IMG/VR virus record: IMGVR_UViG_3300020477_000025
Span: 1-58,346 of that record
Direction: 5' to 3' (one strand)
Length of the DNA: 58,346 nt
DNA from: a virus
This document shows positions 22,022-36,795 of this stretch, in pieces; within the stretch, counting starts at the first letter, position 1; every line of letters starts with the position of its first letter. Under the pieces are notes generated by a model. The model was not told the origin of the DNA, did not search any database, and saw only the letters and a list, made by a program, of their open reading frames with translations. Made by a program: the position numbers and the translations under genes.

Positions 22022-22666
22022 ATGCATGAAAATTCTGATTTGTTAAAAAATATTATAAAAGAAGAAACACAACGAGAAGTGGGGCTTTTTTTAGTTGAAG
22101 AAAGATTTAAAGAATTAAAAGAGCAGGGCTTAACGAGAGAGCAGACTAATATAATTCTTATTAAAGAATTTGGCGTTGACGATGCATTAAATTGGCTTAA
22201 GAAGATGTGGGGCACCAAAGGCGGGCTCGCAGGCGCCGCCAAAGAGTCTGTAATCGAGGCCATCCTTGAATATCTTATAGGCGCCTTGGGCCTAAATCCA
22301 CGAGGCTGGCTAGCTGGCGTTTTAACAAAGGCAATCGCAAATATGACAATGGACGACTGGGAAGCTGTTATGGACGGCGATTGCAATAAAGTTGTGACGG
22401 TTATAGAGGAGGCGCTAACAGAGGAAATATTAGATAGGTTAATAAGAAGGCTTTCTTCTCGCCTAACCAGAGCACTAACTAAGTCGCTCGGCATCAGACC
22501 AGATAAAATAGATGACCTCCTTGGCAGAAGTTTGCGAAGGGTTGTGCGTAATATGTTAGCAAGATACTTGGTCGAAACTAAGATGCTTTCGGGATTAATT
22601 GAACAAGCTGCTGATTATATTTGTTCAATAGATATAGGCGAAATCGTCAGTGCAGCCCGGGCTTGA
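22022..22666 (+). CDS. Helical protein of unknown function with LKxIIxEE N-terminal motif
   Basis: 214 aa, preceded by AAGGAAAA at good spacing. No family recognised. Residues 8-15 read LKNIIKEE, matching at the same positions the N-termini of the proteins at 26859 and 35331; the I-K-E tripeptide fits a T4-type prohead-protease cleavage rule. The rest is strongly helical with Arg-rich amphipathic stretches (RRLSSRLTRALTKSLG, RRVVRNMLARYLVE), which could bind nucleic acid or membranes. A moderately hydrophobic central stretch (VIEAILEYLIGALG) is not a clear membrane span. The TGA stop lies inside the -35 element of the next promoter. An internal head protein is a hypothesis. Confidence 0.65.
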   Translation: MHENSDLLKNIIKEETQREVGLFLVEERFKELKEQGLTREQTNIILIKEFGVDDALNWLKKMWGTKGGLAGAAKESVIEAILEYLIGALGLNPRGWLAGVLTKAIANMTMDDWEAVMDGDCNKVVTVIEEALTEEILDRLIRRLSSRLTRALTKSLGIRPDKIDDLLGRSLRRVVRNMLARYLVETKMLSGLIEQAADYICSIDIGEIVSAARA

Positions 22667-22691
22667 CACAGTTATTTTTTTCTAGTAAAAT
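22663..22691 (+). promoter_or_regulatory. Near-consensus sigma-70 promoter for primase
   Basis: TTGACA (22663-22668) is separated by exactly 17 bases from TAAAAT (22686-22691), matching the bacterial housekeeping consensus except for one base of the -10. The -35 overlaps the stop codon of the upstream gene. The expected transcription start, about seven bases after the -10, coincides with the GTG start codon at 22698. The arrangement suggests early or middle transcription by host polymerase and a leaderless message. Confidence 0.6.
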
Positions 22692-22697
22692 ATATAC

Positions 22698-23639
22698 GTG
22701 TCTAAAACAAAACTCTTACAAGATTTGCTGGGTAGTGGATATCGTTCTGGAGAAGAACATCTTTTTGCTTGTCCATTTTGCAAACACTACAAAAAGAAGT
22801 TATCAATAAATCTAAAAAAGAATAAATTTAAATGTTGGGTGTGTGACACATCTGGCAACTCGCTTCTATATCTTTTTAAGAGATATGGGAACGTGCAACA
22901 ACTGACACAGTGGAAAAAGCTTAACAATATCACAGATTTTTCTGAGATTAATGACAAGTTAGAACATCTTTTTGATAAGCCGGAAAGTAAACCGCTTCCG
23001 AAATTAAATTTGCCAAAAGAATTTATTTCGTTAGCAAACAAGGATTTTTCATTAGCTCAAAAAGGCGCCAAATCATACTTGACTAAAAGAAGAATATCCA
23101 AATCAGACATTCTTTATTGGAAGATTGGGTATTGCCCCAAAGGCCAATATGGAGAGCGGTTGATTATCCCTTCTTTTGATTTGCGAGGAAATGTCAATTA
23201 TTTTATTGCGAGAGCATATAACGGCAACTGGAAAAAATATCTAAATCCAGAAGTTTCCAAGAACGAAATTATTTTTAATGAGCTATATGTTGATTTCAAA
23301 AAGCCGATAATTTTGGTTGAGGGTGTTTTCGACGCAGTTGTTGTTGGTGAAAATTCTATTCCAATTTTAGGCTCGACACTAAAAGAAAGTACTAGGTTGT
23401 TTCAGAAGATTATAAAAAACAACTCGACTGTCTATATGGCACTAGATCCAGACGCAACACGCAAAACAAATGCGATTATAGAAAAACTCTTGCGTTATGG
23501 GATAAAAGTGTATACAATAGATATAAGCGGATTTAAAGATGTCGGTGAAATGACAAAGGAAGAATTTAAAACGAGAAAGGAAGATGCCACAGAGGTGGGC
23601 GACACTTTGTCGTTGCTTTTAAACAATATTAATTTTTGA
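22698..23639 (+). CDS. DnaG-type DNA primase
   Basis: 313 aa with a GTG start. The N-terminal zinc-binding domain has C25-P-F-C28 and C46-W-V-C49. The central part resembles the DnaG catalytic core, and the Toprim motifs are visible: Glu208 in ILVEGVFDAVVV and Asp250/Asp252 in ALDPDA. The enzyme would make RNA primers for lagging-strand synthesis. It is short for DnaG (about 580 aa) and lacks an obvious C-terminal helicase-interaction domain. No ATG lies near the zinc domain and no Shine-Dalgarno precedes the GTG, but a sigma-70 promoter would place the transcript 5' end at the start codon. It is followed nine bases later by the nuclease-ATPase fusion. Confidence 0.85.
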   Translation: MSKTKLLQDLLGSGYRSGEEHLFACPFCKHYKKKLSINLKKNKFKCWVCDTSGNSLLYLFKRYGNVQQLTQWKKLNNITDFSEINDKLEHLFDKPESKPLPKLNLPKEFISLANKDFSLAQKGAKSYLTKRRISKSDILYWKIGYCPKGQYGERLIIPSFDLRGNVNYFIARAYNGNWKKYLNPEVSKNEIIFNELYVDFKKPIILVEGVFDAVVVGENSIPILGSTLKESTRLFQKIIKNNSTVYMALDPDATRKTNAIIEKLLRYGIKVYTIDISGFKDVGEMTKEEFKTRKEDATEVGDTLSLLLNNINF

Positions 23640-23648
23640 GGTTATTAT

Positions 23649-26600
23649 ATGAAGATAGCGCACATTAGCGATATTCATGTGCGAAACTACAAGTATCACT
23701 ATGAATATAGAAAAGTCTTTCAACAACTATTTGACAAGTTGGAAGAGATTAAACCAGACATTATTGTCAATACGGGAGACACAGCACACACCAAGTGTAA
23801 TCTGAGTCCAGAGTATTTTAACTTGACTTCGTGGCTGTTCACCAGCCTAGCGAAGATTGCCCCACTGCATATGATTTTGGGCAACCATGATTGCAATGTT
23901 AAGAACTCCAGCCGCCTTGATGCGATTACTCCGATTACTGAGGCGTTGGAAGATCCCAACATTCACTTTCACAAGTATACAAAAGAAGTAGATTTAGGAG
24001 AAGGCATTATACTCAATGTTCTTTCTATTCTTGATCAGGACAAGTGGACACCCCCATCAGATCCAGACAAGACCAATATTGCACTTTATCACGGCGCAGT
24101 TGCTGGTTCGAAGACGGACACTGGTTGGGTTATGGAACACGGCGAAATTGATCTAGAGTTTTTGGAGAACTTTGATTACGGCTTCTTGGGCGACATTCAC
24201 AGAACAAATCAGATCGTGGATGATCACGGCAAGGCCAGATACCCCGGTTCTCTCATTCAGCAGAACTTTGGAGAGTCGCTAAACAAGGGGTTTTTACTTT
24301 GGGATGTTAAAGATAAGGAAAATTATACTTGTGATTTTTATGAGCTTAAGAACCCAAAACCTTTCGTTACGATCAACTTAACTCCCAAGGGGAGAATACC
24401 TAAGTCAGCAAAGCCCCCAGAAGGCGCTAGGCTGCGTTTAGTTTCCTCAGACAACCAGAGCATCGAAATCTTCAGAAAAGCCGTGGATATCGCTAAGAAA
24501 CGCTTTAAACCAGAGTCTATTTCTTTCTTGAACCGCGCCCACGGTGGCGAGCGCATAAGTGTTGAAAAAGAGGTGGATTGTGTCATCCATGAAAACTTAC
24601 GCGACCAAAGTGTGCAAGAAAAGTTAATAGCAGAATACTTAAAGGAGTACAATGTTAATGAAGAAACTCTAAATGAAGTATATTCTCTTAATGGAAAATA
24701 TAATACCTTGGCAGAGTCCAATGAGGAAACCACCAGAAATGTGTCATGGAAAATCAAAAATTTCAAGTGGAATAATCTTTTCAACTATGGGGAAAACAAC
24801 GAGTTGGACTTTACTAAACTTTCTGGAACTGTCGGAATATTTGGTAAAAACTATAGTGGTAAATCTAGCGTCATCGATAGTTTACTCTACGCAATTTATA
24901 ATAATACTTCTAAAAATATTCGAAAGAATTACAACATTGTCAATGAGCACAAAGATCAAGGATCTGCAGTGGTGGAGATTGAGGCGGGTAATAAAACTTA
25001 CACGATTTCAAGGGAATCGAATAAGTACGTTAAGAAACTTAAAGGCGTCAGTACGAATGAAGCAAAAACCGATGTAGAATTTGCATGTACTGATAACGTT
25101 ATGAGCAGAACCTACAATCTTAACTCCACCGAAAGACACGGCACAGATAAAAATATTAAAAAGATGTTCGGAACACTAGAGGACTTTTTATTAACATCTA
25201 TGTCTTCTCAGCTTGGCTCTATGCAATTTATTAATGAAGGTTCAACAAGGCGCAAAGAGATCCTTGCTAAGTTTTTGGATTTGGAATTCTTTGAAAAGAA
25301 GTTCAAGTTGGCAAAAGATGAGTCCGCTGGCCTCAAGGGTGCTTTGCGCCGCTTAGAGGGACGAGAATATGATGAGGAAATCTCAACTGCCAAAAAGGAT
25401 TTGTTTTCTAACGAGGCAGACACTCTAAAGAAAAAGAGTGAGTGCGAAAAGATAAAAGAGAGCATTGAGAACACAAAGGGTGAGATCACAGGGCTACAAA
25501 AGAAAATTGAAGCAGTGCCTGCCGAACCAATTGATATTGTTGCCGTGCTTGCCGAACAAGAGGGCTTGAACACATCAAAAACAGACTTGGAGAGTATCAA
25601 TAAAGATTTAAAGCTTCGTATTAGGGATAACTCTAAATTCTTAAAATCAGCTAAAGACTTCTTGACGGAGTTCGATGTCGCCACTCTGCGAGAACGTATG
25701 AACGAAGAGGTAAAAAAACAAAAACAAGTCCAAGAGCTTACAGGCGACATCGCGCTGCAGCAGCAAACACTGCAGTCGTATAAAAAAGAACTAAAGAATT
25801 ACAGCAAACAAACTCTCATTTTACACGAAGTTCCATGTAGTGAACATTGCCCAATAAACAAATATATGGTCAGCGCTATGGCAGCGGAAAAGGAAGTTGA
25901 AGAGCAAGCACAAAAAATTGAAGATACAAAAAAAGAATTAAAAGAGAAAAAAGATATTAGGAACGAAGTCAATAAACAAATAATTTCTCTTGATATTCCA
26001 AAAACTCGCCTTCTCATTCAGAATTATGAAGAGTTGCTAAAGAAAAAAGAAACGGCCGAGAAGGACAATGCTGCGTGCGAGTTGGAGTTTCAAAAGAATA
26101 TTAACAAGATTTCAGAACATAAGACCGCCTTGGGCGAACTTGAGAGTAGGATTGAATTTTATAATAAAAATAAAGAAACAATTGAAAATTATAATGGTTT
26201 GCTAAAACAAAAAGTAAAGAAAGAGGCTACAGCTCAAAAATTGAAAGAAGCTTTAGCCGTGTGCGAAAATCAAATTTATGAATTGGCAGTGAAGCATGGC
26301 TCGCTCACCCAGAAGTTAGAGAATATTGAGAATGAAAAAGAAGAGTTGGCCAAACTACAAATGGAGTTTGCAGCAACAGATTTGTTTCTTCGCTGTATGC
26401 ATAGCAATGGCATTGCTTTTGATATCATCAATAAGGCACTTCCAGTTCTTAATGAGGAAATCTCAAAGGTGCTGGCCAACATTGTAAACTTTGAAGTTTA
26501 CTTTGAGAAGGATGGCAACAAACTTGACATTTTTATTCACCATCCGAAGCATGAGCCACGCCCACTTGAAAACGGCTCGGGGGCAGAAAAAACGCTAGCG

Positions 26601-26846
26601 GCAATTGCCATTAGGATTGCTTTGTTGAACATTAGTAATATGCCGAAGTGTAACCTAATTATATTAGATGAACCGGGTTCGGCTTTGGACGAAGAGCATC
26701 TTGAAAGCTTCACTCGCATTTTGGACATGCTAAAGAGTTATTTTGATATTGTGATACTAATTACTCACATAGAATCTTTAAAAGATACTGTTGATATGAC
26801 AATTGATATTACAAAGAAAGATAGTTTTGCATATGTAAATCAATAG
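23649..26846 (+). CDS. Fused SbcD (Mre11)-SbcC (Rad50) nuclease-ATPase
   Basis: 1,065 aa combining in one chain what are normally two proteins (T4 gp47 and gp46; E. coli SbcD and SbcC). Residues 1-340 or so are a Mre11-type calcineurin-fold nuclease: SDIH (Asp8, His10), GDTAH (Asp44), GNHD (Asn79, His80), YHGAVAGS and GDIH. A Rad50-type ATPase follows: Walker A GKNYSGKSS (399-407), a long Lys/Glu-rich coiled coil (about 560-900), a hook-like apex with Cys730 and Cys734 (CSEHC), an atypical signature region (NGSGAEKTLAAIAIRIAL) and Walker B LIILDEPGSALDEEH. The complex processes DNA ends in recombination-dependent replication. The hook is C-x3-C, not the usual C-x2-C. A GAGG ribosome site precedes ATG. 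Confidence 0.9.
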   Translation: MKIAHISDIHVRNYKYHYEYRKVFQQLFDKLEEIKPDIIVNTGDTAHTKCNLSPEYFNLTSWLFTSLAKIAPLHMILGNHDCNVKNSSRLDAITPITEALEDPNIHFHKYTKEVDLGEGIILNVLSILDQDKWTPPSDPDKTNIALYHGAVAGSKTDTGWVMEHGEIDLEFLENFDYGFLGDIHRTNQIVDDHGKARYPGSLIQQNFGESLNKGFLLWDVKDKENYTCDFYELKNPKPFVTINLTPKGRIPKSAKPPEGARLRLVSSDNQSIEIFRKAVDIAKKRFKPESISFLNRAHGGERISVEKEVDCVIHENLRDQSVQEKLIAEYLKEYNVNEETLNEVYSLNGKYNTLAESNEETTRNVSWKIKNFKWNNLFNYGENNELDFTKLSGTVGIFGKNYSGKSSVIDSLLYAIYNNTSKNIRKNYNIVNEHKDQGSAVVEIEAGNKTYTISRESNKYVKKLKGVSTNEAKTDVEFACTDNVMSRTYNLNSTERHGTDKNIKKMFGTLEDFLLTSMSSQLGSMQFINEGSTRRKEILAKFLDLEFFEKKFKLAKDESAGLKGALRRLEGREYDEEISTAKKDLFSNEADTLKKKSECEKIKESIENTKGEITGLQKKIEAVPAEPIDIVAVLAEQEGLNTSKTDLESINKDLKLRIRDNSKFLKSAKDFLTEFDVATLRERMNEEVKKQKQVQELTGDIALQQQTLQSYKKELKNYSKQTLILHEVPCSEHCPINKYMVSAMAAEKEVEEQAQKIEDTKKELKEKKDIRNEVNKQIISLDIPKTRLLIQNYEELLKKKETAEKDNAACELEFQKNINKISEHKTALGELESRIEFYNKNKETIENYNGLLKQKVKKEATAQKLKEALAVCENQIYELAVKHGSLTQKLENIENEKEELAKLQMEFAATDLFLRCMHSNGIAFDIINKALPVLNEEISKVLANIVNFEVYFEKDGNKLDIFIHHPKHEPRPLENGSGAEKTLAAIAIRIALLNISNMPKCNLIILDEPGSALDEEHLESFTRILDMLKSYFDIVILITHIESLKDTVDMTIDITKKDSFAYVNQ

Positions 26847-26858
26847 GGGAAAATAGAA

Positions 26859-27593
26859 ATGAAGATTACAGTTGGTCGTCTTAAAACAATTATAAATGAA
26901 GAGTTGGAACTTTTCCAAGAAAAACACTTAGAGCCGGGAGATCCGGGTCATGACAAGGATTATGAAGAAAAATACGGCGATATGGAAACTCATGAAGAGA
27001 TTCTTTCTAAGCTTGAAGATATTTTAAAAACTTGGGAAGAAAAAGAATATGATTCCGACAAGGATCGCTGGGAAGAATATTATAAAGATATCGAAGCGCT
27101 TGCCGGCGAATTCCGAGAAGAGTTGGGGGATGAACCTGAAGCTGATGATGGCGAGTCCGACGAAGAGCCAAAAAAGAACGATAGAGAAGTTATAACAGGC
27201 GAAAAAGCAAAGTCGTTAGAAGAAATAATTAAACAAGAAATTGAAAGCATGTTGGGCGAAGAAGAATCATACGAAGAACGATTTAAGCCTAAGCTAAGCG
27301 AATCAAAAGACCATCCCGGCAAGGTGTGTGAGGAAGCGCACCCCGATGCGTCACACGAGGAATATATAAAGTCTAAAAAGAAAAGCCCATCAGCCAAAGT
27401 TAAGCTTTCACCAAAACAAAAGAAAGAGATGGATACGGATAAAGATGGCGATATCGATAAAAAAGATATGAAAAACTTGAGAGATAAAAAGAAAAGTAAA
27501 GAGAAGCCAAAAGCTGAAGAAAAGAAAAAGCCAGCAGCAGATAAGCCAAAGAAAAAGTCTGGTTCTAAGGTTTCAAAGAACTTTCCATACTAG
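26859..27593 (+). CDS. Acidic/basic low-complexity protein with LKxIIxEE N-terminus and EF-hand-like loop
   Basis: 244 aa with AGGGGA upstream. The N-terminus MKITVGRLKTIINEEL closely matches that of the 69-aa protein at 35331 and carries I-N-E, a possible prohead-protease site after Glu14. Residues 15-160 are highly acidic (clusters such as EADDGESDEEPKKND). Near residue 195 a 12-residue loop, DTDKDGDIDKKD, fits EF-hand or dockerin-type calcium coordination (Asp at 1, 3, 5, Gly6, Ile8, Asp12). The C-terminus is Lys-rich, poly-basic and likely disordered. A DNA-associated internal head protein or scaffold-associated protein is plausible by analogy with T4 internal proteins. No enzyme motif is seen. 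Confidence 0.65.
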   Translation: MKITVGRLKTIINEELELFQEKHLEPGDPGHDKDYEEKYGDMETHEEILSKLEDILKTWEEKEYDSDKDRWEEYYKDIEALAGEFREELGDEPEADDGESDEEPKKNDREVITGEKAKSLEEIIKQEIESMLGEEESYEERFKPKLSESKDHPGKVCEEAHPDASHEEYIKSKKKSPSAKVKLSPKQKKEMDTDKDGDIDKKDMKNLRDKKKSKEKPKAEEKKKPAADKPKKKSGSKVSKNFPY

Positions 27594-27605
27594 TGAGGAT
27601 AAAAA

Positions 27606-27674
27606 ATGTGTGGGTGTGAAAATTGCAAATGTGAAAAACTCTGCGGCTGCTCTTGCTGCTGCGGAGATAAATAA
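27606..27674 (+). CDS. Putative Cys-rich (metallothionein-like) micropeptide, 22 aa
   Basis: A 22-codon frame starting with ATG at 27606 after TGAGGA at suitable spacing and ending in TAA at 27672-27674. It exactly fills the gap between the 244-aa gene and the next ribosome site. Nine of 22 residues are Cys (CGCENCKCEKLCGCSCCC), the density seen in metallothionein-type metal binders. No family assignment is possible at this length. The ribosome site and snug fit support translation; function (metal binding, redox, or none) is speculation. It could be a chance frame in the spacer. Confidence 0.45.
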   Translation: MCGCENCKCEKLCGCSCCCGDK

Positions 27675-27688
27675 CTACGGAGGGTAGA

Positions 27689-27883
27689 ATGGTGGCAGCA
27701 GCAAAAGCATTTATAGATCAAAATTTAGAGAGATTTATGTCAAAGAAACTTCTCGTTTGGCTAACTACAACGGGATTGCTCTTGGCAGAGAAGGTAGATT
27801 CAGAGCAGTGGATGATTATCGCCACAGCCTATGTCGGAACGCAAGGTTTCGTTGATGTAGTGGCTCGCTTCAAGGGCAAGTAA
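27689..27883 (+). CDS. Small membrane-associated protein, holin-like candidate
   Basis: 64 aa, preceded by a strong GGAGGGT ribosome site. A hydrophobic stretch, residues about 18-32 (SKKLLVWLTTTGLLLAEK), and a second moderately hydrophobic one, residues about 39-58 (WMIIATAYVGTQGFVDVVA), are separated by a short charged loop. The product ends with a basic tail. Size, two weak membrane segments and the overlap (TAATG) with an Rz-like gene are typical of holin-like or lysis-cassette proteins. Family not recognised with certainty; an accessory membrane protein is the alternative. Confidence 0.55.
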   Translation: MVAAAKAFIDQNLERFMSKKLLVWLTTTGLLLAEKVDSEQWMIIATAYVGTQGFVDVVARFKGK

Positions 27884-28311
27884 TGACTTGGCTAGCCGTT
27901 AAAGCATTTTTCAAAAAAGCTTGGGCGTGGGTTGTCAAGTACTGGCAATACTTCGCCCTTGCTTGTTATACGGTTGTCGTAGTTATTTTGCTGCGAGACA
28001 AGAAAAACGTTGATAACATCAAGTCTGCTTTCAAGGCTTCAAAAGAGTCTCACCAAAAAGAAGTTGAAGCAATCAACAGTGCTCATAAAGAAGAGTTGGT
28101 GAAGAGAGATAAAATTATTGAGGACTACAATAAAACACTAATGCAGCTTGATGAAGAGTATAAAAAACAAAAACTAGATTTAAAAGAGTGGGAAAAGAAA
28201 AAGGTTAAAAAAATTGTTGAAGAAACGCATAATGATCCAGAGGGCAGAACCGCAAAAATCGCTAGCGAGTTTGGTTTTGAATTGGTGACGATAGATGATA
28301 CGACTGATTAG
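27883..28311 (+). CDS. Rz-like i-spanin candidate
   Basis: 142 aa, starting one base into the previous stop (TAATG). A cytoplasmic N-terminus rich in Trp/Lys/Ala is followed by one membrane span (residues about 22-38, YFALACYTVVVVILL). A Lys/Glu-rich periplasmic coiled coil runs to about residue 110. This N-in, single-span, coiled-coil layout matches inner-membrane spanins (lambda Rz type), which fuse inner and outer membranes in the last lysis step of Gram-negative hosts. The next gene overlaps by 17 bases in another frame, as spanin pairs often do. Assignment rests on architecture, not sequence identity. Confidence 0.55.
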   Translation: MTWLAVKAFFKKAWAWVVKYWQYFALACYTVVVVILLRDKKNVDNIKSAFKASKESHQKEVEAINSAHKEELVKRDKIIEDYNKTLMQLDEEYKKQKLDLKEWEKKKVKKIVEETHNDPEGRTAKIASEFGFELVTIDDTTD

Positions 28312-28738
28312 TGTATTTTTAACATTTTTAATTGTCCTTATCCCTGTCAACTCTTATTCTAATCCAAAGGTGGCAGAGATTAAACAGGGCCAGAAGGCGC
28401 CCTACAATGGCATTCTTTACAATTATGAAGCGAATGCAGTGTTGTTAGCTTCCAAAGAAAAAGGCCAGCTAGAATGTTCTCTTCAACTGAAGCACAGCGC
28501 AGCCAAGGAAAAGGCAAAATGTGATATGCTAACGTCCACCGTCAAGGCATCGCTGGATGCCACTGAAAAGAAGTACGGTGCAATTTTAAAAATCAAAAAT
28601 AATCAAATTAATCATCTTGAGAAGATAACACTTAATCAACCCAACTCACACAATCACTGGTGGTTTGCTGGTGGATTTGTGGGCGGCGTTGCTTTGTCTT
28701 TAGGAATCTTTTATGTGGCGGTACAGACAGCGAAATGA
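28295..28738 (+). CDS. Signal-peptide protein with C-terminal membrane span (lysis cassette)
   Basis: 147 aa, overlapping the 3' end of the Rz-like gene by 17 bases. Residues 1-22 form a signal peptide or anchor (RLISVFLTFLIVLIPVNSYS) without a lipobox Cys, so it is not a standard outer-membrane lipoprotein o-spanin. The middle (residues 30-110) contains KQGQKAPYNGILYNYEANA, two Cys and a helical Lys-rich segment. Residues about 124-143 are a second hydrophobic span (WWFAGGFVGGVALSLGIFYV). This architecture is common next to phage lysis genes, but its biochemical role is not known. Spanin partner or holin/antiholin-type membrane protein are possibilities. Confidence 0.6.
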   Translation: MIRLISVFLTFLIVLIPVNSYSNPKVAEIKQGQKAPYNGILYNYEANAVLLASKEKGQLECSLQLKHSAAKEKAKCDMLTSTVKASLDATEKKYGAILKIKNNQINHLEKITLNQPNSHNHWWFAGGFVGGVALSLGIFYVAVQTAK

Positions 28739-29127
28739 AAGAAAAAGATTGGGATTATATAGCCAGCCTAGAGAAGGCAATTGCTAAAAAATATGGTGAC
28801 GTTGCGATTAAAAATCCCGCCTCCAATTGGGATCAGGAAAAGGAAGAAGAGTACTTAAAACAGATTAAAGAAATGCGAGAGCAAGAGTCGGTCAAAGAAT
28901 CATCTAAAGAGATGGTTGCTACCGGCGGTTTTTTTACCAGCAAGAAACTAATTAATAGAGAAACGAATAGACAATGCCCTTTGTGTGGAATATATTCTTT
29001 TCGCAGCAGAGATGAACTTTATATGAATAAGTTTAAATGCTGCTACAAATGCTATATAAAGCATTTTGAAGGAATTGAGCATGTGTGGGAAAACAAATGG
29101 AAGAGGATAAAATCAAATGTCAAATGA
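28735..29127 (+). CDS. Zinc-ribbon-like small protein, 130 aa
   Basis: The start at 28735 overlaps the preceding stop (ATGA); a longer in-frame version starting at 28660 would overlap the upstream gene by 79 bases and is less likely. The N-terminal half is charged and helical. The C-terminal part has CPLCGIYSF and CCYKCYIKHF, two Cys pairs about 25 residues apart, as in zinc ribbons. A small regulatory or packaging-associated DNA-binding protein is possible. It lies two genes upstream of the terminase, where small terminase subunits are often found, but it does not resemble T4 gp16. Function not assigned. Confidence 0.6.
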   Translation: MKEKDWDYIASLEKAIAKKYGDVAIKNPASNWDQEKEEEYLKQIKEMREQESVKESSKEMVATGGFFTSKKLINRETNRQCPLCGIYSFRSRDELYMNKFKCCYKCYIKHFEGIEHVWENKWKRIKSNVK

Positions 29128-29752
29128 ACTTTACAGCGTAATACAGGGAATTTCTCAAGCGTTATCAAAAAATTATGATGGCGCTTATGAAGAGGACGGC
29201 ATGATGGATTATCATGACGGCGCCGAAAGAGATTTAGTTAAAATTGGCTTGAATAAAGAAAAGGTCGGCAATATTAATATTGATACTCGCGGTGGCTCCA
29301 TGGACGGTTTTGGGTGCCAATTTCACGGAAATCATTTAATTATTAAATATCATGGTGAAGTTAATATGAAAGACCTTCATCGGAATGGGCCCAAAAATTT
29401 TGAGGATGAAATTGAACAAACATTCGCTGACATTATTAAGTTTATAAAAAAAGAATATAAGAAAAACACAGGAAAGGCGCTTAAGCTAACCTCTGCCGGC
29501 GATGCAAAATCATTAATTCAGCGTATGTCAAATATTAGAAATTGGGTACAGTCGAGCAAACGATATAAAATTGATGGTCTAGAGGCCAACGAAGTGGAAG
29601 ATAACGAAGAAAGAGGCTCGGACTATCGCAAGGCTAATGGCGTTGAGGATGCAATTAAAAAATTCTTATCGCTCTCTTCGAAACAAAATCCGAAAAATAG
29701 ATTTAAAAAGAATCCACCGCGCCCCGGCCCGGGCGAAGTTGATAAGGGGTGA
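29117..29752 (+). CDS. Hypothetical protein upstream of terminase, 211 aa
   Basis: It overlaps the previous gene by 11 bases and ends 11 bases before the terminase gene. The first 130 residues look like a compact alpha/beta domain with conserved-looking Gly/His/Asp positions (NIDTRGGSMDGFGCQFHG, HLIIKYHGEVNMKDLH). The C-terminus is Lys/Pro-rich and disordered (RFKKNPPRPGPGEVDKG). No family recognised. Position directly before terL makes a packaging-related or virion-associated role possible, but there is no small-terminase signature. Confidence 0.6.
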   Translation: MSNELYSVIQGISQALSKNYDGAYEEDGMMDYHDGAERDLVKIGLNKEKVGNINIDTRGGSMDGFGCQFHGNHLIIKYHGEVNMKDLHRNGPKNFEDEIEQTFADIIKFIKKEYKKNTGKALKLTSAGDAKSLIQRMSNIRNWVQSSKRYKIDGLEANEVEDNEERGSDYRKANGVEDAIKKFLSLSSKQNPKNRFKKNPPRPGPGEVDKG

Positions 29753-29763
29753 TAAAAAGTTGA

Positions 29764-31353
29764 ATGGCAAAAACATATCAATTAACAAAATCCGACATCA
29801 AGAAAGAGCTTATCAAGTGCGGTAAAGATCCAGTTTATTTTATTAATAATTATGTTAGGATAGCCCACCCTATGAGGGGGCTGATTCCCTTTGGTTTATA
29901 CCCTTTTCAAGAAGAAGTGGTAAAAGATTTTACTGATCATCGTTATAATATTATTCTCAAAGCAAGGCAGTTAGGCATATCAACAACAATTTCTGCTTAT
30001 ATTACTTGGCTTATGCTATTTCACAGAAGTAAAAATGTTGTTGTTATGGCGACAAAGTTAAGTACTGCAGCCAATCTTGTTAAAAAAACAAAGTTGGCGA
30101 TGAAATCTTTACCAGATTGGATGATGATTTCTAAGATTATTATTGATAATAGAAATTCTTTTAAGTTGGATAACGAAAGTGAAGTGAAGGCAATTTCAAC
30201 TTCGGGTGACGCTGGTCGTTCTGAGGCACTTTCTTTATTGGTTATCGACGAAGCTGCAATTATTGAAGGGCTAGATACTTTGTGGGCCGGCCTATTACCT
30301 ACGTTGTCTACTGGCGGCGATTGTATTATTGCTTCAACGCCAAAGGGTGTTGGAAACATGTTTCATAAGCTGTACAGCGAGGCAGAACAAGAGTTAAACG
30401 ACTTTAATGATATATGTCTACCATGGGATGTGCATCCCGAAAGGGATCGCGAATGGTTTGAGAAAGAATGTCGTAATATGTCAAAGCGCGAAGTTGCACA
30501 AGAACTGCAGTGCAATTTTAATATGTCGGGCGAAACGCTAATAGCTGGCGAGGATTTAGAAAAAATTAATACTGCGCTCCTTGAGCCAATGTATAAAACA
30601 GGCTTCGATCGAAATTTATGGATATGGGAAAAATTCGACGCGTCCAAGAAATATTTTTTGGTAGCAGACGTTGCCCGGGGCGATGGCCAAGATAGTTCAA
30701 CTTTTCATATTTTTAATACAGAAACAATGGAGCATGTTGCAGAGTATAAAGGCAAACTACCAATTGACATGTTCGCCCCTTTGATTTTTGAAACTAGTAA
30801 AGAATATGGCTTTTGTTTGACAGTTGTAGAAAATAATTCAATAGGGATGTCTGTTTTGGACAAATTAATAGATATGAACCATCCAAACCTTTATTATTCC
30901 AGAAAGGGAAGCCACGAGCACGTTGATCAATATTTAGCAGAACAACAAAAAACAGTTGCACCGGGATTTACTACGACAGTTAAAACGCGACCACTGGTTA
31001 TTGCCAAGCTTGAGGAACTAATTAGAAATGGAGCTATAAAAATAAAGTCAAATAGATTATATAATGAATTTAAGACATTTGTTTGGAACAACGGCAAGGC
31101 GCAGGCCATGCGCGGCTATAATGACGATTTGGTAATGGCTTGCGCAATTGCCTGTTGGATCCGCGACACGGCGTTGACGACTAACAAACAAGAGGTTGCA
31201 TATAAAAGGGCTATGTTAAATTGTTTATTCAAGACGCAGAAATCTATTAAAACAACTGTTGAAGGCATGAATGGACACAATAAAAATAAACATGTTAGGC
31301 CAGATCCAAAAAATGTGGTTCTGAACATTGGAAAGCCCTTTTTTGTAAGGTAA
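29764..31353 (+). CDS. terL: Terminase large subunit (T4 gp17-like packaging ATPase/nuclease)
   Basis: 529 aa. The N-terminal ATPase has an adenine-binding YPFQEEVV, a variant Walker A ARQLGIST (residues 67-74), Walker B VIDEA with Asp162/Glu163, and a coupling motif ASTPKGVGNMFH. The C-terminal RNase H-like nuclease has Asp302 in VADVARGD, Glu356 in VVENN and Asp454/Asp455 in YNDD. This motor docks on the portal, translocates DNA into the prohead and cuts the concatemer at headful. Length is slightly under T4 gp17 (610 aa). It is followed seven bases later by the portal gene, the usual order. Confidence 0.95.
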   Translation: MAKTYQLTKSDIKKELIKCGKDPVYFINNYVRIAHPMRGLIPFGLYPFQEEVVKDFTDHRYNIILKARQLGISTTISAYITWLMLFHRSKNVVVMATKLSTAANLVKKTKLAMKSLPDWMMISKIIIDNRNSFKLDNESEVKAISTSGDAGRSEALSLLVIDEAAIIEGLDTLWAGLLPTLSTGGDCIIASTPKGVGNMFHKLYSEAEQELNDFNDICLPWDVHPERDREWFEKECRNMSKREVAQELQCNFNMSGETLIAGEDLEKINTALLEPMYKTGFDRNLWIWEKFDASKKYFLVADVARGDGQDSSTFHIFNTETMEHVAEYKGKLPIDMFAPLIFETSKEYGFCLTVVENNSIGMSVLDKLIDMNHPNLYYSRKGSHEHVDQYLAEQQKTVAPGFTTTVKTRPLVIAKLEELIRNGAIKIKSNRLYNEFKTFVWNNGKAQAMRGYNDDLVMACAIACWIRDTALTTNKQEVAYKRAMLNCLFKTQKSIKTTVEGMNGHNKNKHVRPDPKNVVLNIGKPFFVR

Positions 31354-31359
31354 AAAATA

Positions 31360-33468
31360 ATGGCGTACAGAAATTTAAGAAACAATAGAAGAAATCATGG
31401 AAACAATCCTGATAACCCAAACTCAACTTTGTTTAAAAAGTTGACGAGGTTATTTTCGGGACCAATTATTAATTACCGGCAACAGCACGCCAGAAAGCTA
31501 AGAAGGCACAAGCTGGATAAATATGCTTCTACCTTTAAAAGTGCCAGCGGCCAACAGTTTAAGAAAAAAACATATAACCCATATGACCATGTTATGACAG
31601 GGATGATGAAGCAGCAGCATCGTTCTGAGCGATATGGTGATTTCGATCAGATGGAGTTCACCCCGGAGCTAGCCTCTGCTATGGATATATATGCTGATGA
31701 AATTACCACACACACTCAGTTTAGTAAAGTTTTAAAGATCGAGTGCCCCAACGAAGAAATCAAAAATATTTTAGAAACTTTATATTACCAAGTGTTAAAT
31801 ATTGAATTCAATCTTTTTGGTTGGGCTAGAACTTTATGTAAGTATGGGGACTTCTTTCTTTATTTAGATATTGATGATAAAATTGGCATTAAGAGCGCCA
31901 TTGGCTTACCATCTGCCGAAATAGAGAGGATGGAAGGCGAAGACCCAACCAATCCAAACTATGTTCAGTTTCAATGGAATTCTGCTGCAATGACGTTGGA
32001 AAATTGGCAAGTTGCTCACTTTAGGGTACTTGGAAATGATAAATATGCACCATATGGCACCAGCGTACTTGATCCGGCGCGGAGGATTTGGAGGCAAATG
32101 ACTCTATTGGAGGACGCGATGATGGCTTATCGAATCGTTCGCGCTCCTGACCGCCGCGTCTTCTATATTGATGTTGGTGGAATTCCCCCCGAGGAAGTTG
32201 AACAGTTTGTTGAAAAAGCAATGACACAGATGAGAAGGCACAATGTTGTCGACGCTAGCACCGGAAAGGTAGACTTAAGATATAACCCTGCTTCCATAGA
32301 AGAGGACTTTTGGATCCCAGTTCGCGGCGGAACCAGCGGAACAAAGATAGAGAACCTTGGCGGCCAGCAGAGAACTGGTGATATTGATGATGTTAAATAT
32401 TTAAGAGACAAATTGTTTGCAGCAATTAAAATTCCAATGTCTTACCTGATTCGCGGCGAGGGCGGCGAGGAAGACAAGACTTCGCTGGCGCAAAAAGATA
32501 TACGCTTTGCAAGAACTATTCAAAGATTACAACGCTCGATAATATCTGAATTAGAAAAAATTGCGATTGTTCACCTTTATACTCTTGGGTATAAAGGACA
32601 CGATTTAGTTTCTTTTAAGCTACACCTACACAATCCTTCAAAAATTGCTGAACTACAAGAAATCGAACATTGGACACAGAAACTCAATGTTGTTGCCGCG
32701 GCCACAGAACAAATCTTCAGCAGAAGGTGGGTAGCACAAAATATTTTAAATATTTCAGACGAAGAGTTTGTACGCTGCCAAAGAGAGCGATTCTATGACA
32801 AAAAAGTTGATCAAATGATTGAAAAAGCAGCAGAAGCTGTAGCTGGTTCTGCCGGGGCACTGAGTGCAGCATCTGAGATGGGTGGAGTCCAAGCGGCCAC
32901 TGGCATAACTGCAAAAGATGACGCTGAAGCCGAAGAGGGCCTTGAGGGTGGAGAAGCCGACTTAGGCGGCGAAGCTGGCCTCGCCGGCCTAGGCGCTGAA
33001 GCACCCGGTGAAACCCCCGGTGCTGCCCCGGCTGAAGTTACACCACCCGCCGGCGGCGAAGAGGAGGGCGTACTTATGGCAGCACCCGCTGCTGCCGCGG
33101 CAACGCCACCACCCGGTAAAAGAGATGATGGTGATTCATGGATTAGAGTTTCTAAAAAAGATATAATGGGTCAAAAGCACACAACAACACCCAGAGCCAA
33201 AGGCAAGTGGCATAAACCGGTGTCCGTAGATCAAAGGCGATCAGCCGCAAGAAGAAAAAATATGATGGCTCAGGCCGGCCCTGCGCAGTTTGGAAGGCGC
33301 GGCATTGGTGTGGATGTTTTTGATCGACTAGCTCGCGGTATTGTTTCAGAAAACGAGTCTAATTACATTGATGATAAAGTTGAAGAAGAGCTTTTTCAAA
33401 CCAATGCAGAAGTAAAAATGTTAATAGAAAGTCTGGAGAAGAAAGCTAATGAAACTCAAACACAATAA
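31360..33468 (+). CDS. Portal protein (T4 gp20-like)
   Basis: 702 aa (T4 gp20 has 524). Residues 1-480 or so carry the gp20-type body, including PELASAMDIYADEITTH near residue 105, YGTSVLDPARRIW, YRIVRAPDRRVFYIDVG near residue 255, and the channel region IKIPMSYLIRGEG followed by KTSLAQKDIRFARTIQRLQR. The portal is the dodecameric ring at one capsid vertex through which TerL pumps DNA. The C-terminal 200 residues are an Ala/Gly/Pro/Glu-rich low-complexity extension followed by a basic patch and an acidic coil. The next gene overlaps its end by 20 bases. Confidence 0.93.
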   Translation: MAYRNLRNNRRNHGNNPDNPNSTLFKKLTRLFSGPIINYRQQHARKLRRHKLDKYASTFKSASGQQFKKKTYNPYDHVMTGMMKQQHRSERYGDFDQMEFTPELASAMDIYADEITTHTQFSKVLKIECPNEEIKNILETLYYQVLNIEFNLFGWARTLCKYGDFFLYLDIDDKIGIKSAIGLPSAEIERMEGEDPTNPNYVQFQWNSAAMTLENWQVAHFRVLGNDKYAPYGTSVLDPARRIWRQMTLLEDAMMAYRIVRAPDRRVFYIDVGGIPPEEVEQFVEKAMTQMRRHNVVDASTGKVDLRYNPASIEEDFWIPVRGGTSGTKIENLGGQQRTGDIDDVKYLRDKLFAAIKIPMSYLIRGEGGEEDKTSLAQKDIRFARTIQRLQRSIISELEKIAIVHLYTLGYKGHDLVSFKLHLHNPSKIAELQEIEHWTQKLNVVAAATEQIFSRRWVAQNILNISDEEFVRCQRERFYDKKVDQMIEKAAEAVAGSAGALSAASEMGGVQAATGITAKDDAEAEEGLEGGEADLGGEAGLAGLGAEAPGETPGAAPAEVTPPAGGEEEGVLMAAPAAAAATPPPGKRDDGDSWIRVSKKDIMGQKHTTTPRAKGKWHKPVSVDQRRSAARRKNMMAQAGPAQFGRRGIGVDVFDRLARGIVSENESNYIDDKVEEELFQTNAEVKMLIESLEKKANETQTQ

Positions 33469-34279
33469 AAGAAGAAATACAGCGTTTTTGTACGAAGTGC
33501 TTGTTAAGGAATTGACGAGAGCAACAATACAAAGTGACAAAAAGAAAAAGCAAATTATTGTACAGACTCTTAAAGAATTTTTTAATAAAAATTCTATTTT
33601 AGGCAAAGAACTTGAAATTTATAAAGTGCTAAACGAGACTTTTTCACTTAGAGAAAGAGACGCAGAAAAACTATTATCTGAAGTGAAGAGGATGTATAAG
33701 AGCACACTTAATCCCGAAGGGATTTATTCTGCGCAGTCCAAACTCATTTCTAAAATTAATAAAGATATTTCAATAAATGCTTTTTCAAATTTTGTACCAA
33801 ACTATAAAAGCTTGGCGAGCATATTTCAAATTTTTAATGAAAACACACCAGTTAAAAGCAAAATTTTGATGGAGAGGCGAATAATAAAAAGGATGTCGTC
33901 AAGAAAGCACGAGGTAGAAAGGGAAAATAGACAAGTATCAAACACAACTGTGAAAATTTTTGCCAAAAAATTCAATGATGTATATGGTGATTTGTTGAGC
34001 GAACAAAAAGAATTGTTATCTAAGTTTGTTTCTTCCGTTGGTGATAATGGTTTAGAATTAAAAATGTTTTTAAATGAAGAAATAGCTAGACTTAAAAAAG
34101 AAATAGCAGAATCACTTGGAACAGAAGAAATAAAAAAAGATTCAGAAATGCTAGCGAAAACAAAAAATGTATTAAAGCTTTTAAACAATTTTAAGGGACA
34201 ACATATAACGGAGAGCGTTCTTGCAAGGGTGCTAAAAATACAGAAACTAGCCAACGAGTTTAAATTAAATGAAAAATAA
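33449..34279 (+). CDS. Lys/Glu-rich helical protein, head module, 276 aa
   Basis: It starts inside the portal gene end (20-base overlap) behind GGAGAAG. It is nearly all alpha-helical, highly charged and basic (KHNKRRNTAFLYEVLVKEL at the N-terminus, several KK and RR pairs later), with no Cys and no membrane segment. No enzyme motif. Similar-looking helical proteins between portal and prohead protease are usually prohead core or assembly proteins, so that role is inferred from location. The next gene overlaps by 11 bases, indicating coupled translation. Confidence 0.65.
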   Translation: MKLKHNKRRNTAFLYEVLVKELTRATIQSDKKKKQIIVQTLKEFFNKNSILGKELEIYKVLNETFSLRERDAEKLLSEVKRMYKSTLNPEGIYSAQSKLISKINKDISINAFSNFVPNYKSLASIFQIFNENTPVKSKILMERRIIKRMSSRKHEVERENRQVSNTTVKIFAKKFNDVYGDLLSEQKELLSKFVSSVGDNGLELKMFLNEEIARLKKEIAESLGTEEIKKDSEMLAKTKNVLKLLNNFKGQHITESVLARVLKIQKLANEFKLNEK

Positions 34280-34931
34280 ACAAAAAGTAAAACAACTTGT
34301 AGACGAGCAAATAAGAGTTGTCGTTAGTAGTTTAGAACCCGAAAGGGGGCCAATACGTGTTCGTGTTGCCAGCCCACCACCACCGGACCCGCCGCTTAAA
34401 TTGAAGGTCGGATTAGATCCGGATGCTGAAATTAAATTAAAAATTAGAGAACCAATCAAGGTATACCTTAAAATTCGCAGCACGCTCGGTGGCGATTACA
34501 TGATTTTCGATCACCCACTTTATGATATCGCAATCATGCCGGGTAAAAATAAAATTGTTACTTTCGTTCGCGACGATGCGCATTTTAATCCCTATCCGTC
34601 ACAAAATAAGTTTTTTAATTTTTTGCGGTTTAAGGGTATAATAATGCCAGACACTGTACAGGCTGGAAATGTATACGGTTCGCTAGAGGCGATGTATCCC
34701 GTTAATGATAAAGTAGATACTGTTGAGGTTATTTTGTTGGCAATTCATGATTTTCTAAAGAAAGAAACCCCAGAAATAATGGCTGCACTTGATTATGAAA
34801 TAAATGTGGAAGATACATATACAGACCCAGATGAGGAAGACGCAACTGAGCTTGGCGAAGTACCTCACGAAGACAAAAAGGGAAGTATTGACCCCAACTA
34901 CAAGAATTATCAGATAATTTATAGGATTTAG
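34269..34931 (+). CDS. Hypothetical protein with proline-rich N-terminus, 220 aa
   Basis: Not recognised. Residues 1-15 are basic, then a proline stretch (ASPPPPDPPLKLKVGL) leads into a probably beta-rich domain (KVYLKIRSTLGGDYMIFDH, then NKIVTFVRDDAHF). The last 40 residues are acidic (TDPDEEDATELGEV). It starts in an 11-base overlap with the gene before it and is in the head module, so a minor head or assembly protein is inferred. No signal peptide or membrane segment. Confidence 0.6.
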   Translation: MKNKQKVKQLVDEQIRVVVSSLEPERGPIRVRVASPPPPDPPLKLKVGLDPDAEIKLKIREPIKVYLKIRSTLGGDYMIFDHPLYDIAIMPGKNKIVTFVRDDAHFNPYPSQNKFFNFLRFKGIIMPDTVQAGNVYGSLEAMYPVNDKVDTVEVILLAIHDFLKKETPEIMAALDYEINVEDTYTDPDEEDATELGEVPHEDKKGSIDPNYKNYQIIYRI

Positions 34932-34939
34932 GAGATTTT

Positions 34940-35236
34940 ATGGATATACTTTGGTTCATTTTATCCGCCTACGGCTTAACACAAATTTTAGTTTATGGTT
35001 CGATTTTTAAAAAAATAAGACCAGAAAAGGGTTTTTTTGGGGAACTGTTCCATTGCCCAATGTGTTTGGGCTTTTGGGTGGGCGTATTTCTTTACGGAAT
35101 TTCTTTTTACACAGAACTATTTACATTTGAGCTTAATTTGACAAACCCACTTATTTTGGGTAGTTTAAGTTCTGGTACATCATACGCTTTAAGTATGTTA
35201 TTTGGAGATGAGGGAATCAATGTTAAAAGGAATTAA
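34940..35236 (+). CDS. DUF1360-like small membrane protein
   Basis: 98 aa, behind TTAGGAG at ideal spacing. Hydrophobic N-terminal segment (ILWFILSAYGLTQILVYG), then the sequence HCPMCLGFWVGVFLYG, which is the hallmark of the DUF1360 family found in phages and bacteria. A C-terminal hydrophobic stretch (PLILGSLSSGTSYALSMLFG) follows. Two to three membrane passes are likely, with a CxxC motif at the membrane face that may bind metal or form a disulfide. Function of the family is unknown. It sits oddly inside a head-assembly module. Confidence 0.75.
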   Translation: MDILWFILSAYGLTQILVYGSIFKKIRPEKGFFGELFHCPMCLGFWVGVFLYGISFYTELFTFELNLTNPLILGSLSSGTSYALSMLFGDEGINVKRN

Positions 35237-35330
35237 TATTTTTGTTGATAATCATTGGATGCTACAACCACCTCGGCTTTGTAAAGGCGGATGCTGTATC
35301 ATGCGGGTAACGCCCGCAGGAATTAAATAA
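35220..35330 (+). CDS. Small ORF, 36 aa, with CKGGCC motif
   Basis: ATG at 35220 lies 17 bases inside the DUF1360-like gene, with GAGATGAGGGA just upstream as ribosome site. The frame runs to TAA at 35328-35330, directly abutting the ATG at 35331. The product has a hydrophobic/Trp N-terminal part, the Cys cluster LCKGGCCIM, and a short tail. Perfect tiling between neighbours in a genome with almost no spacers supports a real gene. Function unknown; the Cys cluster may pair with the CxxC of the adjacent membrane protein (speculative). Confidence 0.5.
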   Translation: MLKGINIFVDNHWMLQPPRLCKGGCCIMRVTPAGIK

Positions 35331-35540
35331 ATGAAGATAACTGTTAAAAAATTAAAACAAATTATTAAAGAAGAGATGGTCGCAGTGGGGGATCTTAACG
35401 TTACTATCGATTCCGCCACTGCCAGAAAATCTGTTGAAGATATTGATGCAGAGACTATAAAAGCAGCTATTTTGAAAATGGCTGACGACGACCTGATTTC
35501 TCAACTGGCCATTAAGTTACAAGGTATTAAATCACAATGA
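35331..35540 (+). CDS. Small protein with LKxIIxEE N-terminal motif, 69 aa
   Basis: It starts directly after the 36-aa frame, with AGGAA upstream, and its stop overlaps the protease start (ATGA). The N-terminus MKITVKKLKQIIKEEM is almost the same as that of the 244-aa protein at 26859. It ends in I-K-E, a match to the (I/L)-x-E rule of T4-type prohead proteases. The remaining 53 residues are acidic and helical. Encoded immediately before the protease, it is a candidate prohead core or internal protein, comparable in position to the small core proteins near T4 gene 21. Confidence 0.65.
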   Translation: MKITVKKLKQIIKEEMVAVGDLNVTIDSATARKSVEDIDAETIKAAILKMADDDLISQLAIKLQGIKSQ

Positions 35541-36160
35541 ATAAACAAGTGCTCTTACAGGAATATTATGCTTTATGCGAAGGCGGCGTTTGCCAAGATC
35601 TTCTCACTGAGCGTGAAAAGCAGGAAATGCGTGATGGTACCGCCCTTTATTTGACTGGTATTATGCAAAGGGCTGATGCAAAAAATGGCAATGGTAGAGT
35701 TTACTCTTTAGATATCTTAAAACGAGAAGCAAAAAATTATATGAAACTCATTAGGGAAAATAGAGCCTTGGGAGAGTTGGATCATCCAGAAAGCTCTATT
35801 GTAAATTTGCAAAACTGTTCTCATCTTGTAACTGAGCTTTGGTTTAACGGCGACGACATGATGGGTAAAATTAAAGCCTTGAGCACACCATCTGGTGAAA
35901 TTTTGAAATCTTTGGTAAAGAGCGGGGTACAAGTTGGAATATCATCAAGAGGGCTGGGGTCTGTAGAGGAAAGAGGCGGCCATACATACGTTCAAGATGA
36001 TTTTCAGCTTATTTGTTTTGATATTGTTGCCGACCCTTCAACCAAGGGTGCGTTTATGAAGCCGACTGCAACTATGAAAGAAAGTAAAGAATTTATGAAA
36101 CGTATTTTTACAAAAGCAGACCGTGTTAATCGTATTTTAAATGATATTTTAGAGGATTGA
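35537..36160 (+). CDS. Prohead core protease (T4 gp21-like serine peptidase)
   Basis: 207 aa, the same size class as T4 gp21 (212 aa). The diagnostic motifs are ALGELDHPES with His83 and VQVGISSRGLGS with Ser136/Ser137, followed by a beta region ending in DIVADPSTKGAF. The early GNGRVYSLDILKR segment is also typical. The enzyme matures the prohead by cutting scaffold, internal proteins and the capsid protein after (I/L)-x-E. It starts by ATGA overlap with the 69-aa gene and its stop overlaps the next ATG (TGATG), so three head genes are translationally coupled. Confidence 0.93.
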   Translation: MNKQVLLQEYYALCEGGVCQDLLTEREKQEMRDGTALYLTGIMQRADAKNGNGRVYSLDILKREAKNYMKLIRENRALGELDHPESSIVNLQNCSHLVTELWFNGDDMMGKIKALSTPSGEILKSLVKSGVQVGISSRGLGSVEERGGHTYVQDDFQLICFDIVADPSTKGAFMKPTATMKESKEFMKRIFTKADRVNRILNDILED

Positions 36161-36591
36161 TGATGAAGCGCAGCGAATTTAAAAATAAAATAAAACCCAT
36201 TATAGAAGAGTGTATTAAAGAAATACTTTTTGAGGAAGGCATCCTTTCTGGTATAATTGCTGAAGTGATAAGGGGCACAAAAAGTAACGTTGTTTACGAA
36301 TCTAGACATAATGAGGCAGAAATAAACAAAGAAAAAGAAAAAGTGACCGAAGAAAGAAAAGAAATTAAAAGAAAATCTAGCGAGTCAAGAAAAAAATTAT
36401 TGGATGCGATAGGAAAAGATGCTTTTAATGGTGTTAATCTTTTTGAGGGAACAGAACCAATGCGAGGCGGTGCTGCTAAGGACGGCGCTGCCCCGCAGTC
36501 GCCCTTGGCTAATATGGCCCCTAACGACCCGGGCATTGACATTTCAAATATTCCCGGCGTAAACGTCTGGAAACACCTAATTAAAGAGTAG
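36160..36591 (+). CDS. Head-module helical protein with IKPIIEE N-terminal motif, 143 aa
   Basis: Start at 36160 (or 36163, the next codon) overlaps the protease stop as TGATG. The N-terminus MKRSEFKNKIKPIIEE resembles the LKxIIxEE leader of the proteins at 22022, 26859 and 35331 and offers an I-x-E cleavage tripeptide. The middle is a Lys/Glu/Arg-rich helix (residues 45-85). The tail is Gly/Ala/Pro-rich, ending VNVWKHLIKE. No family recognised. A scaffold or internal core component is inferred from its place between protease and scaffold genes. Confidence 0.62.
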   Translation: MMKRSEFKNKIKPIIEECIKEILFEEGILSGIIAEVIRGTKSNVVYESRHNEAEINKEKEKVTEERKEIKRKSSESRKKLLDAIGKDAFNGVNLFEGTEPMRGGAAKDGAAPQSPLANMAPNDPGIDISNIPGVNVWKHLIKE

Positions 36592-36597
36592 TACGTT

Positions 36598-36795
36598 ATG
36601 AAAAGAGGACATGTAAAAGTAGAAGCTAGGCGAAACGAACCATTTGAAAAAATGTTAAAAAGATTTGTAAAAATAGTCAGGAAGGAAAGAATAATTGAAG
36701 AGGCCAGAGAGAGAATGTATTATGAAAAGCCCTCTGATAAAAAAAGACGCCTTAGAAAAAGAAGAAGAACACAAACTAAAGCACAAACTAAATAA
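36598..36795 (+). CDS. Phage-encoded ribosomal protein bS21
   Basis: 65 aa (E. coli bS21 has 71). VKV near residue 6, NEPFEKMLKRF (13-23) and YYEKPSDKKRR (41-51) align well with bS21 landmarks VKVRENEPF, the ALRRF helix and FYEKPTTERKR. The C-terminus is a very basic Arg/Lys tail as in S21. In the 30S subunit bS21 sits near the anti-Shine-Dalgarno end of 16S rRNA and affects initiation. bS21 homologues are known in several large phages and pelagiphages and may bias host ribosomes toward phage mRNAs. The gene's own ribosome site is weak, and it lies between prohead genes, suggesting late expression. Confidence 0.85.
   Translation: MKRGHVKVEARRNEPFEKMLKRFVKIVRKERIIEEARERMYYEKPSDKKRRLRKRRRTQTKAQTK

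Follow-up and report, generated by a model that had tools for sequence, protein, structure and literature searches.

Bacteriophage T4 packages a handful of proteins in its head and injects them; one of these blocks a restriction enzyme. Its internal proteins IPI, IPII and IPIII, together with Alt, are unrelated proteins that share a short N-terminal capsid-targeting sequence (CTS), which ends in (L/I)xE and is cut by the prohead protease gp21. In the IPIII CTS, MKTYQEFIAE↓A (arrows mark known or predicted cut sites and leader junctions), Y4 and F7 carry targeting, and I8 and E10 are needed for processing. T4 gp21 cuts after (L/I)-x-E (PMC9026906). Propeptides of phiKZ and SPN3US head and injected proteins are cut after Glu, sometimes at several sites each, by the diverged gp21 homologues gp175 and gp245 (PMC9026906, PMC5694885), and the N-terminal residues of P1 DarB suffice for sending a protein into the capsid (PMC9024508). 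Here, we describe a short N-terminal leader, termed class I, encoded in the 58,346-nt IMG/VR record IMGVR_UViG_3300020477_000025 (positions 1 to 58,346, the window; proteins are simple open-reading-frame calls) and in its relatives. Judged from its sequence, the window derives from an uncultured T4-like phage and covers part of its structural region: terminase, portal, a Peptidase_S77 (S77) protease of the gp21 type, a gene at the scaffold position and the Gp23 capsid protein are all encoded within it.

Like the T4 CTS, the class I leader is a short N-terminal sequence on unrelated proteins that ends in (L/I)xE, in genomes with an S77 protease. It differs in forming a longer helix (14 to ~22 residues) and in numbers, with tens of leader genes in arrays against few in T4. 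As in phiKZ and SPN3US, the predicted cut is after Glu, but their propeptides are mostly >100 residues long and are not one short leader common to dozens of genes. The P1 Dar proteins have no common sequence, and the DarB signal is unrelated to the class I leader. A preliminary description of the window had suggested a gp21-linked capsid-targeting propeptide on unrelated proteins. The core of that idea is supported by S77 co-occurrence, (L/I)xE statistics, capsid-protein sites and leader swaps, and the leader very probably works as a lineage-specific T4-type capsid-targeting propeptide. A literature search with exact leader sequences and related ideas, of partial coverage and reaching few subscription papers or preprints, found no earlier description.

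The class I leader in the window and its relatives

The motif LKxIIxEE was confirmed from the translations at residues 8–15 of the proteins starting at 22022 (MHENSDL-LKNIIKEE), 26859 (MKITVGR-LKTIINEE) and 35331 (MKITVKK-LKQIIKEE), as was the related IKPIIEE in the frame starting at 36160 (MMKRSEFKNK-IKPIIEE). A six-frame scan of the window gave no clear case beyond these four. On a scoring matrix built from 247 leaders, the 26859 and 35331 proteins reached 29.8 and 38.8 bits, and only these two carry the full MKIT-type leader; neither the window nor seven relatives read whole gave a match to reversed sequences. The 22022 protein is classed as a variant leader, because it lacks the MKIT start and scored <14 bits on residues 2–16; on residues 8–22 it tops 2400 non-leader genes (25.3 bits). 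The 26859 protein has relatives in loci L003 and L008, and the location of the 35331 gene is matched in L003, L004 and L005, whereas no relatives of the 22022 protein were found among the loci fetched. The 26859 and 35331 proteins are likely cargo, and the chance that the 22022 protein is cargo is about even.

A motif search across related phages, as the preliminary description had proposed, was run with the DNA pattern for MKITxxxL(K/R)xIIxE. At least 120 IMG/VR stretches matched, and the pattern read backwards had zero matches across the whole collection. Leader records were sampled via the MKIT pattern, and their consensus is MKITKxQL(K/R)xII(K/R)EE. Among 138 class I proteins only M1, L8, I12 and E14 are near invariant (mean column identity 5%); leader conservation is high through residue 16 and fades by about residue 22. 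One short N-terminal sequence thus stands on otherwise mostly unrelated proteins. Its codons vary synonymously while the residues are held (Thr4 as ACA, ACC, ACT or ACG; L8 as CTT, TTA, CTA or CTC).

Seven large relatives were read whole, and leader genes made up 3.5–8.9% of their called genes (by matrix, 27 in G018, 30 in G036, 25 in G011, 26 in G039, 12 in G002, 9 in G009 and 6 in G028). These genes form tandem arrays, with 93 adjacent same-strand pairs observed vs. 7.3 expected. A motif-free comparison of N-termini in six relatives returned 378, 476, 345, 473, 82 and 48 similar pairs, vs. 0–2 for internal segments. Chance as the source of the leader was rejected on the reversed pattern, the reversed-sequence matrix and the motif-free pair counts. 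A host origin was also rejected: 84,980 cellular species gave 25 stretches, and isolate genomes had no true leader gene.

Two contigs filed in bacterial metagenome-assembled genomes, NHDW01000006.1 (305.8 kb; loci L410, L416, L419 and L423) and PBIO01000025.1 (101 kb; loci L411 and L415), carry many class I leader genes. The genomes filed with them contain an S77 gene, and both look like mis-binned phage contigs. Proteins of about 60–85 amino acids starting with MK(V/I)GDLVK occur several per genome (G018, G036, G013, G002 and others) and probably represent a single small domain family, not a leader.

Predicted processing, leader exchange and cargo

The I12-x-E14 of the leader fits the gp21 (L/I)-x-E motif, and both residues are near invariant. 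Later sites were counted at residues 17–30 of 325 non-redundant leader proteins and compared with shuffles. (L/I)xE occurred there in 153 proteins vs. 64 ± 6 in shuffles, and (L/I)(L/I)xE in 50 vs. an expectation of 7.6; substituting D, Q or K for E in the later-site motif gave no enrichment in these 325 proteins. The P1′ position of the later site is enriched for G, A or S, and hardly so at (L/I)xE triplets deeper in the proteins. Two L-x-E sites were present in 28/28 capsid-protein relatives, the second mostly followed by A or S and lying at about the cut position of T4 gp23 (in the window, the E60 codon of Gp23 is 38765–38767). The T4 record gives FIAE↓A, LIAE↓A, LLRE↓S and FLTE↓A, and in phiKZ several cut sites within one propeptide are known (PMC9026906). 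On these grounds the cut after Glu14 put forward in the preliminary description is possible, but the (L/I)xE↓(G/A/S) site at residues 17–30, where present, may serve instead or additionally, and may be the main cut.

Two further leaders, defined as classes after the data were seen, occur in the same phages: class II, MKxLRxYIRxxLxE (31 genes; internal null 1), and class III, MKxLMENWRKFLxE (22 genes; internal null 5). Class III agrees with the T4 IPIII CTS at all four positions of known function (aromatics at 4 and 7, I8 and E10) and plausibly belongs to the T4 CTS sequence family. Class I does not, because the targeting residues are not common to both.

Homologous cargo was found behind different leader classes, joined at (L/I)xE. 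An 80-residue cargo follows both MKITKLQLRRIIAE↓AIDLDIEKGDV and MKKLLTEWRKYLNE↓MKLDIKVGDV, with only M1, K2, R9 and E14 of the leader kept. In a further swap, IIKEVLTE↓STELDKALY corresponds to ISQVLKE↓ATKLPDDFY. A kinase cargo is joined as ELNRVLRE↓NMGLKMFVLVGPP (22-residue leader) and as NWKRILKE↓EISHLKIFFLIGPP; its relatives in Ruegeria and Rhizobium phages are leaderless. A DEGGAAG cargo is found behind class I and class III leaders, and a VxHxT-type cargo in cultured phages stands behind FLKE↓G, YESILEE↓G and ANELAE↓A. The junction alignment is less clean in some pairs (L355/L362 and L064/L054). The swaps replace unrelated DNA yet keep (L/I)xE, and this leader exchange is the strongest evidence that class I would function as a T4-type CTS does.

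Class I proteins are short (median 112 amino acids), and nearly all class I cargo is without a match in Pfam and PHROGs. Cargo behind class II and III leaders matched NUDIX, GNAT, Zeta-toxin-like kinase, HD and SAM-lyase-like families. An AlphaFold model of one swapped cargo showed, at low confidence, a separate helix at residues 5–17 and a beta domain.

Linkage to the protease and competing explanations

The gp21-like protease noted at 35537 was verified by its match to the Peptidase_S77 catalytic-domain profile (102.8 bits; cut-off 27). It has matches in 2526 phage records, including T4-type prohead proteases, and is presumed to be the processing enzyme for the leaders. Among 40 leader-bearing IMG/VR records ≥30 kb, chosen by length and without a completeness estimate, S77 was present in 28 and Gp23 in 26; all 12 records ≥145 kb had S77. 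The S77-less records G004, G008 and G013 are fragments of the same lineage, and an alternative S78 protease was not found in any of the 12 S77-less records. Conversely, 27/37 loci selected by the protease alone had a leader gene. In 48 random viral contigs the leader was absent (0/48) and S77 occurred once (1/48), a comparison that is not length-matched because the random contigs are shorter (only ~13 of 48 are ≥30 kb).

The gene beside the protease had been counted in the preliminary description as one of the leader-bearing set. Relatives of its product start at the second Met (MKRSEFKN, 36163), and the family (MKKSELKNIIKECVKEVIFEEG) lies within ~2 kb downstream of S77, both in the window and in each of the seven relatives whose gene order was compared. 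It is a conserved core-like gene and not variable cargo, and its product is more likely a core component than cargo. On the question of homology to T4 gp67 or gp68, Pfam gave no match for the protein and PHROGs gave weak matches only. Once shifted by two residues, the family fits the leader helix, with one of the highest scores among the 2400 non-leader genes, and because of this match the leader may copy the docking helix of a core protein. The window copy reaches only 9.4 bits on the leader matrix, and several other non-leader genes, which may be diverged leader genes, score as high as the family.

We propose that a leader-bearing protein would be anchored in the prohead core by its amphipathic leader helix, probably at the docking position of the N-terminal helix of the core-like protein. 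Cleavage by the S77 protease at (L/I)-x-E would follow, after Glu14 and/or at (L/I)xE↓(G/A/S) a few residues on. The mature protein would be freed within the head and injected together with the DNA.

Several observations weigh against this proposal. The aromatic residues that the T4 CTS has at positions 4 and 7 are missing from class I, the residue after E14 is usually E whereas T4 has A or S, and about half of the leader proteins, including that at 35331, are without the second site. Most class I cargo is acidic, with a mean net charge of −0.073 per residue and 19% of cargos basic, unlike the basic T4 internal proteins. The set of DNA-associated proteins envisaged in the preliminary description is not supported, because the cargo is mostly acidic, and DNA-binding cargo as a general rule was dropped on the same charge data. 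The divergent S77-less record G014 (125 kb) has one leader gene, although a T4-like portal and terminase are encoded there too. Shared ancestry is also a confounder of the leader–S77 co-occurrence.

An amphipathic helix on mostly unrelated small proteins encoded in arrays could also be a docking helix for a non-capsid hub, meaning a complex of host or phage origin inside the infected cell, and stay uncleaved. The E14↓E15 bond, which is not a typical T4 site, and the separate helix in the low-confidence AlphaFold model would suit such a role. We consider it quite improbable, since the second (L/I)xE↓(G/A/S) site is strongly enriched, swaps with T4-CTS-like leaders occur at (L/I)xE, and the leader resembles the core-like protein beside the protease and is linked to S77. 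The conserved 5′ sequence might otherwise be kept for recombination or translation, the peptide being without a role; cassette-like arrays and swaps would also suit a recombination point. This is scarcely credible when synonymous codons vary freely while residues hold, and when swaps exchange unrelated DNA but keep (L/I)xE.

In a variant of the capsid-targeting explanation, targeting holds but delivery fails: the leader would mark core or scaffold parts that are kept or degraded in the prohead, and there would be no injected effectors. The core-like protein resembles a core part, as do some long leader proteins, and some proteins combine the leader with the scaffold C-terminal motif R(M/W)xxLAG. 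Delivered cargo is, however, a better fit to up to 30 variable, mostly orphan leader genes per genome, and to the NUDIX, GNAT, Zeta-toxin-like and HD proteins behind other leader classes, and we regard this variant as unlikely. For capsid targeting with delivery, we lean towards the view that uncultured T4-like phages load roughly 25–40 small, fast-changing proteins per virion via several exchangeable head-targeting leaders.

If the leaders act as the T4 CTS does, some uncultured phages carry many more injected proteins than T4, almost none with a known domain, and for a phage known from sequence only, a reading of its gene starts would give the list of injected proteins. The leaders would then offer (i) a simple sequence rule for candidate injected proteins, possible anti-defence factors included; and (ii) a natural tag set for loading proteins into phage heads.

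Head genes of the window and cultured phages

Coordinates of the leader and head genes are collected in Table 1.

Table 1. Leader, protease and head genes in the window.
Feature	Coordinates	Strand	Description
214-aa protein	22022..22666	+	Variant leader MHENSDLLKNIIKE(E); possible later site LVE26↓E; Arg-rich helical body
244-aa protein	26859..27593	+	Class I leader MKITVGRLKTIINE↓E; acidic Lys/Glu-rich body
69-aa protein	35331..35540	+	Class I leader MKITVKKLKQIIKE↓E; directly upstream of protease
Prohead core protease, Peptidase_S77 (gp21 type)	35537..36160	+	Pfam PF03420 2.1e-29; PHROG head maturation protease 8e-54
Conserved core-like protein beside protease	36163..36591	+	N-terminal helix resembling leader (MKRSEFKNKIKPIIEECIKEILFEEG); start = second Met
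Scaffold (gp22 position)	37399..38559	+	C-terminus RMRRLAGIE; assigned by position; no Pfam match above cut-off
Major capsid protein Gp23	38588..40546	+	Pfam PF07068 1e-73; N-terminal sites LLE51↓N and LLRE60↓V

R(M/W)xxLAGI stands at the C-terminus of the scaffold-position protein in the window (38520–38559) and in many loci. This motif was found in the last 18 residues of 76/4787 genes, vs. 25 internal and 4 N-terminal occurrences, and may be a second tag for docking in the head. R(M/W)xxLAG is also present at the C-terminus of some long class I leader proteins, and in phage immuto a motif of this type forms the N-terminal leader (EQFKRMQFLAGIITE↓S) of two proteins. Genes for Gp23 occur as a tandem pair in G011 (139110–142966) and G036 (176269–180150).

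Among the phages considered, S77 was present in the cultured T4, KVP40, immuto, Melnitz-1, S-RIM44, Slickus01, K566, Mel-JY01, SCTP-2 and PHA46, and in the uncultured LR756508; it was looked for in T5, SPO1 and N4 and was absent. The motif-free test recovered IPII, IPIII and IPI from T4, a 12-gene cluster from Slickus01 and clusters from immuto, including the class I-like MKKSQLRQIIKEAL. No clear excess of similar N-termini was seen in T5, SPO1, N4 and KVP40. The class I leader is rare in cultured phages, and tblastn with the short leader found almost nothing there, low-complexity filtering probably masking the query. Two cultured phages with comparable shared leaders already open the idea to testing: Flavobacterium phage immuto, with MKKSQLRQIIKEAL genes and FLVE↓N genes, and Alishewanella phage Slickus01, with about ten genes that start MKIDxLYESLLEE↓G. 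In Slickus01 (L394, 86.6–92.6 kb), neighbouring genes share leaders of the form MKIDxLYESLLEE↓(G/S), and several of them encode a VxHxT cargo domain.

Between protease and scaffold, the window encodes a bS21-like ribosomal protein (PF01165, 6e-14) at 36598–36795, and small basic genes occupy this position in relatives (G002, G028, G018, G039 and others). A single 1065-residue frame at 23649–26846 resembles, by eye, a fusion of a gp47-type nuclease and a gp46-type ATPase (SbcD/SbcC).

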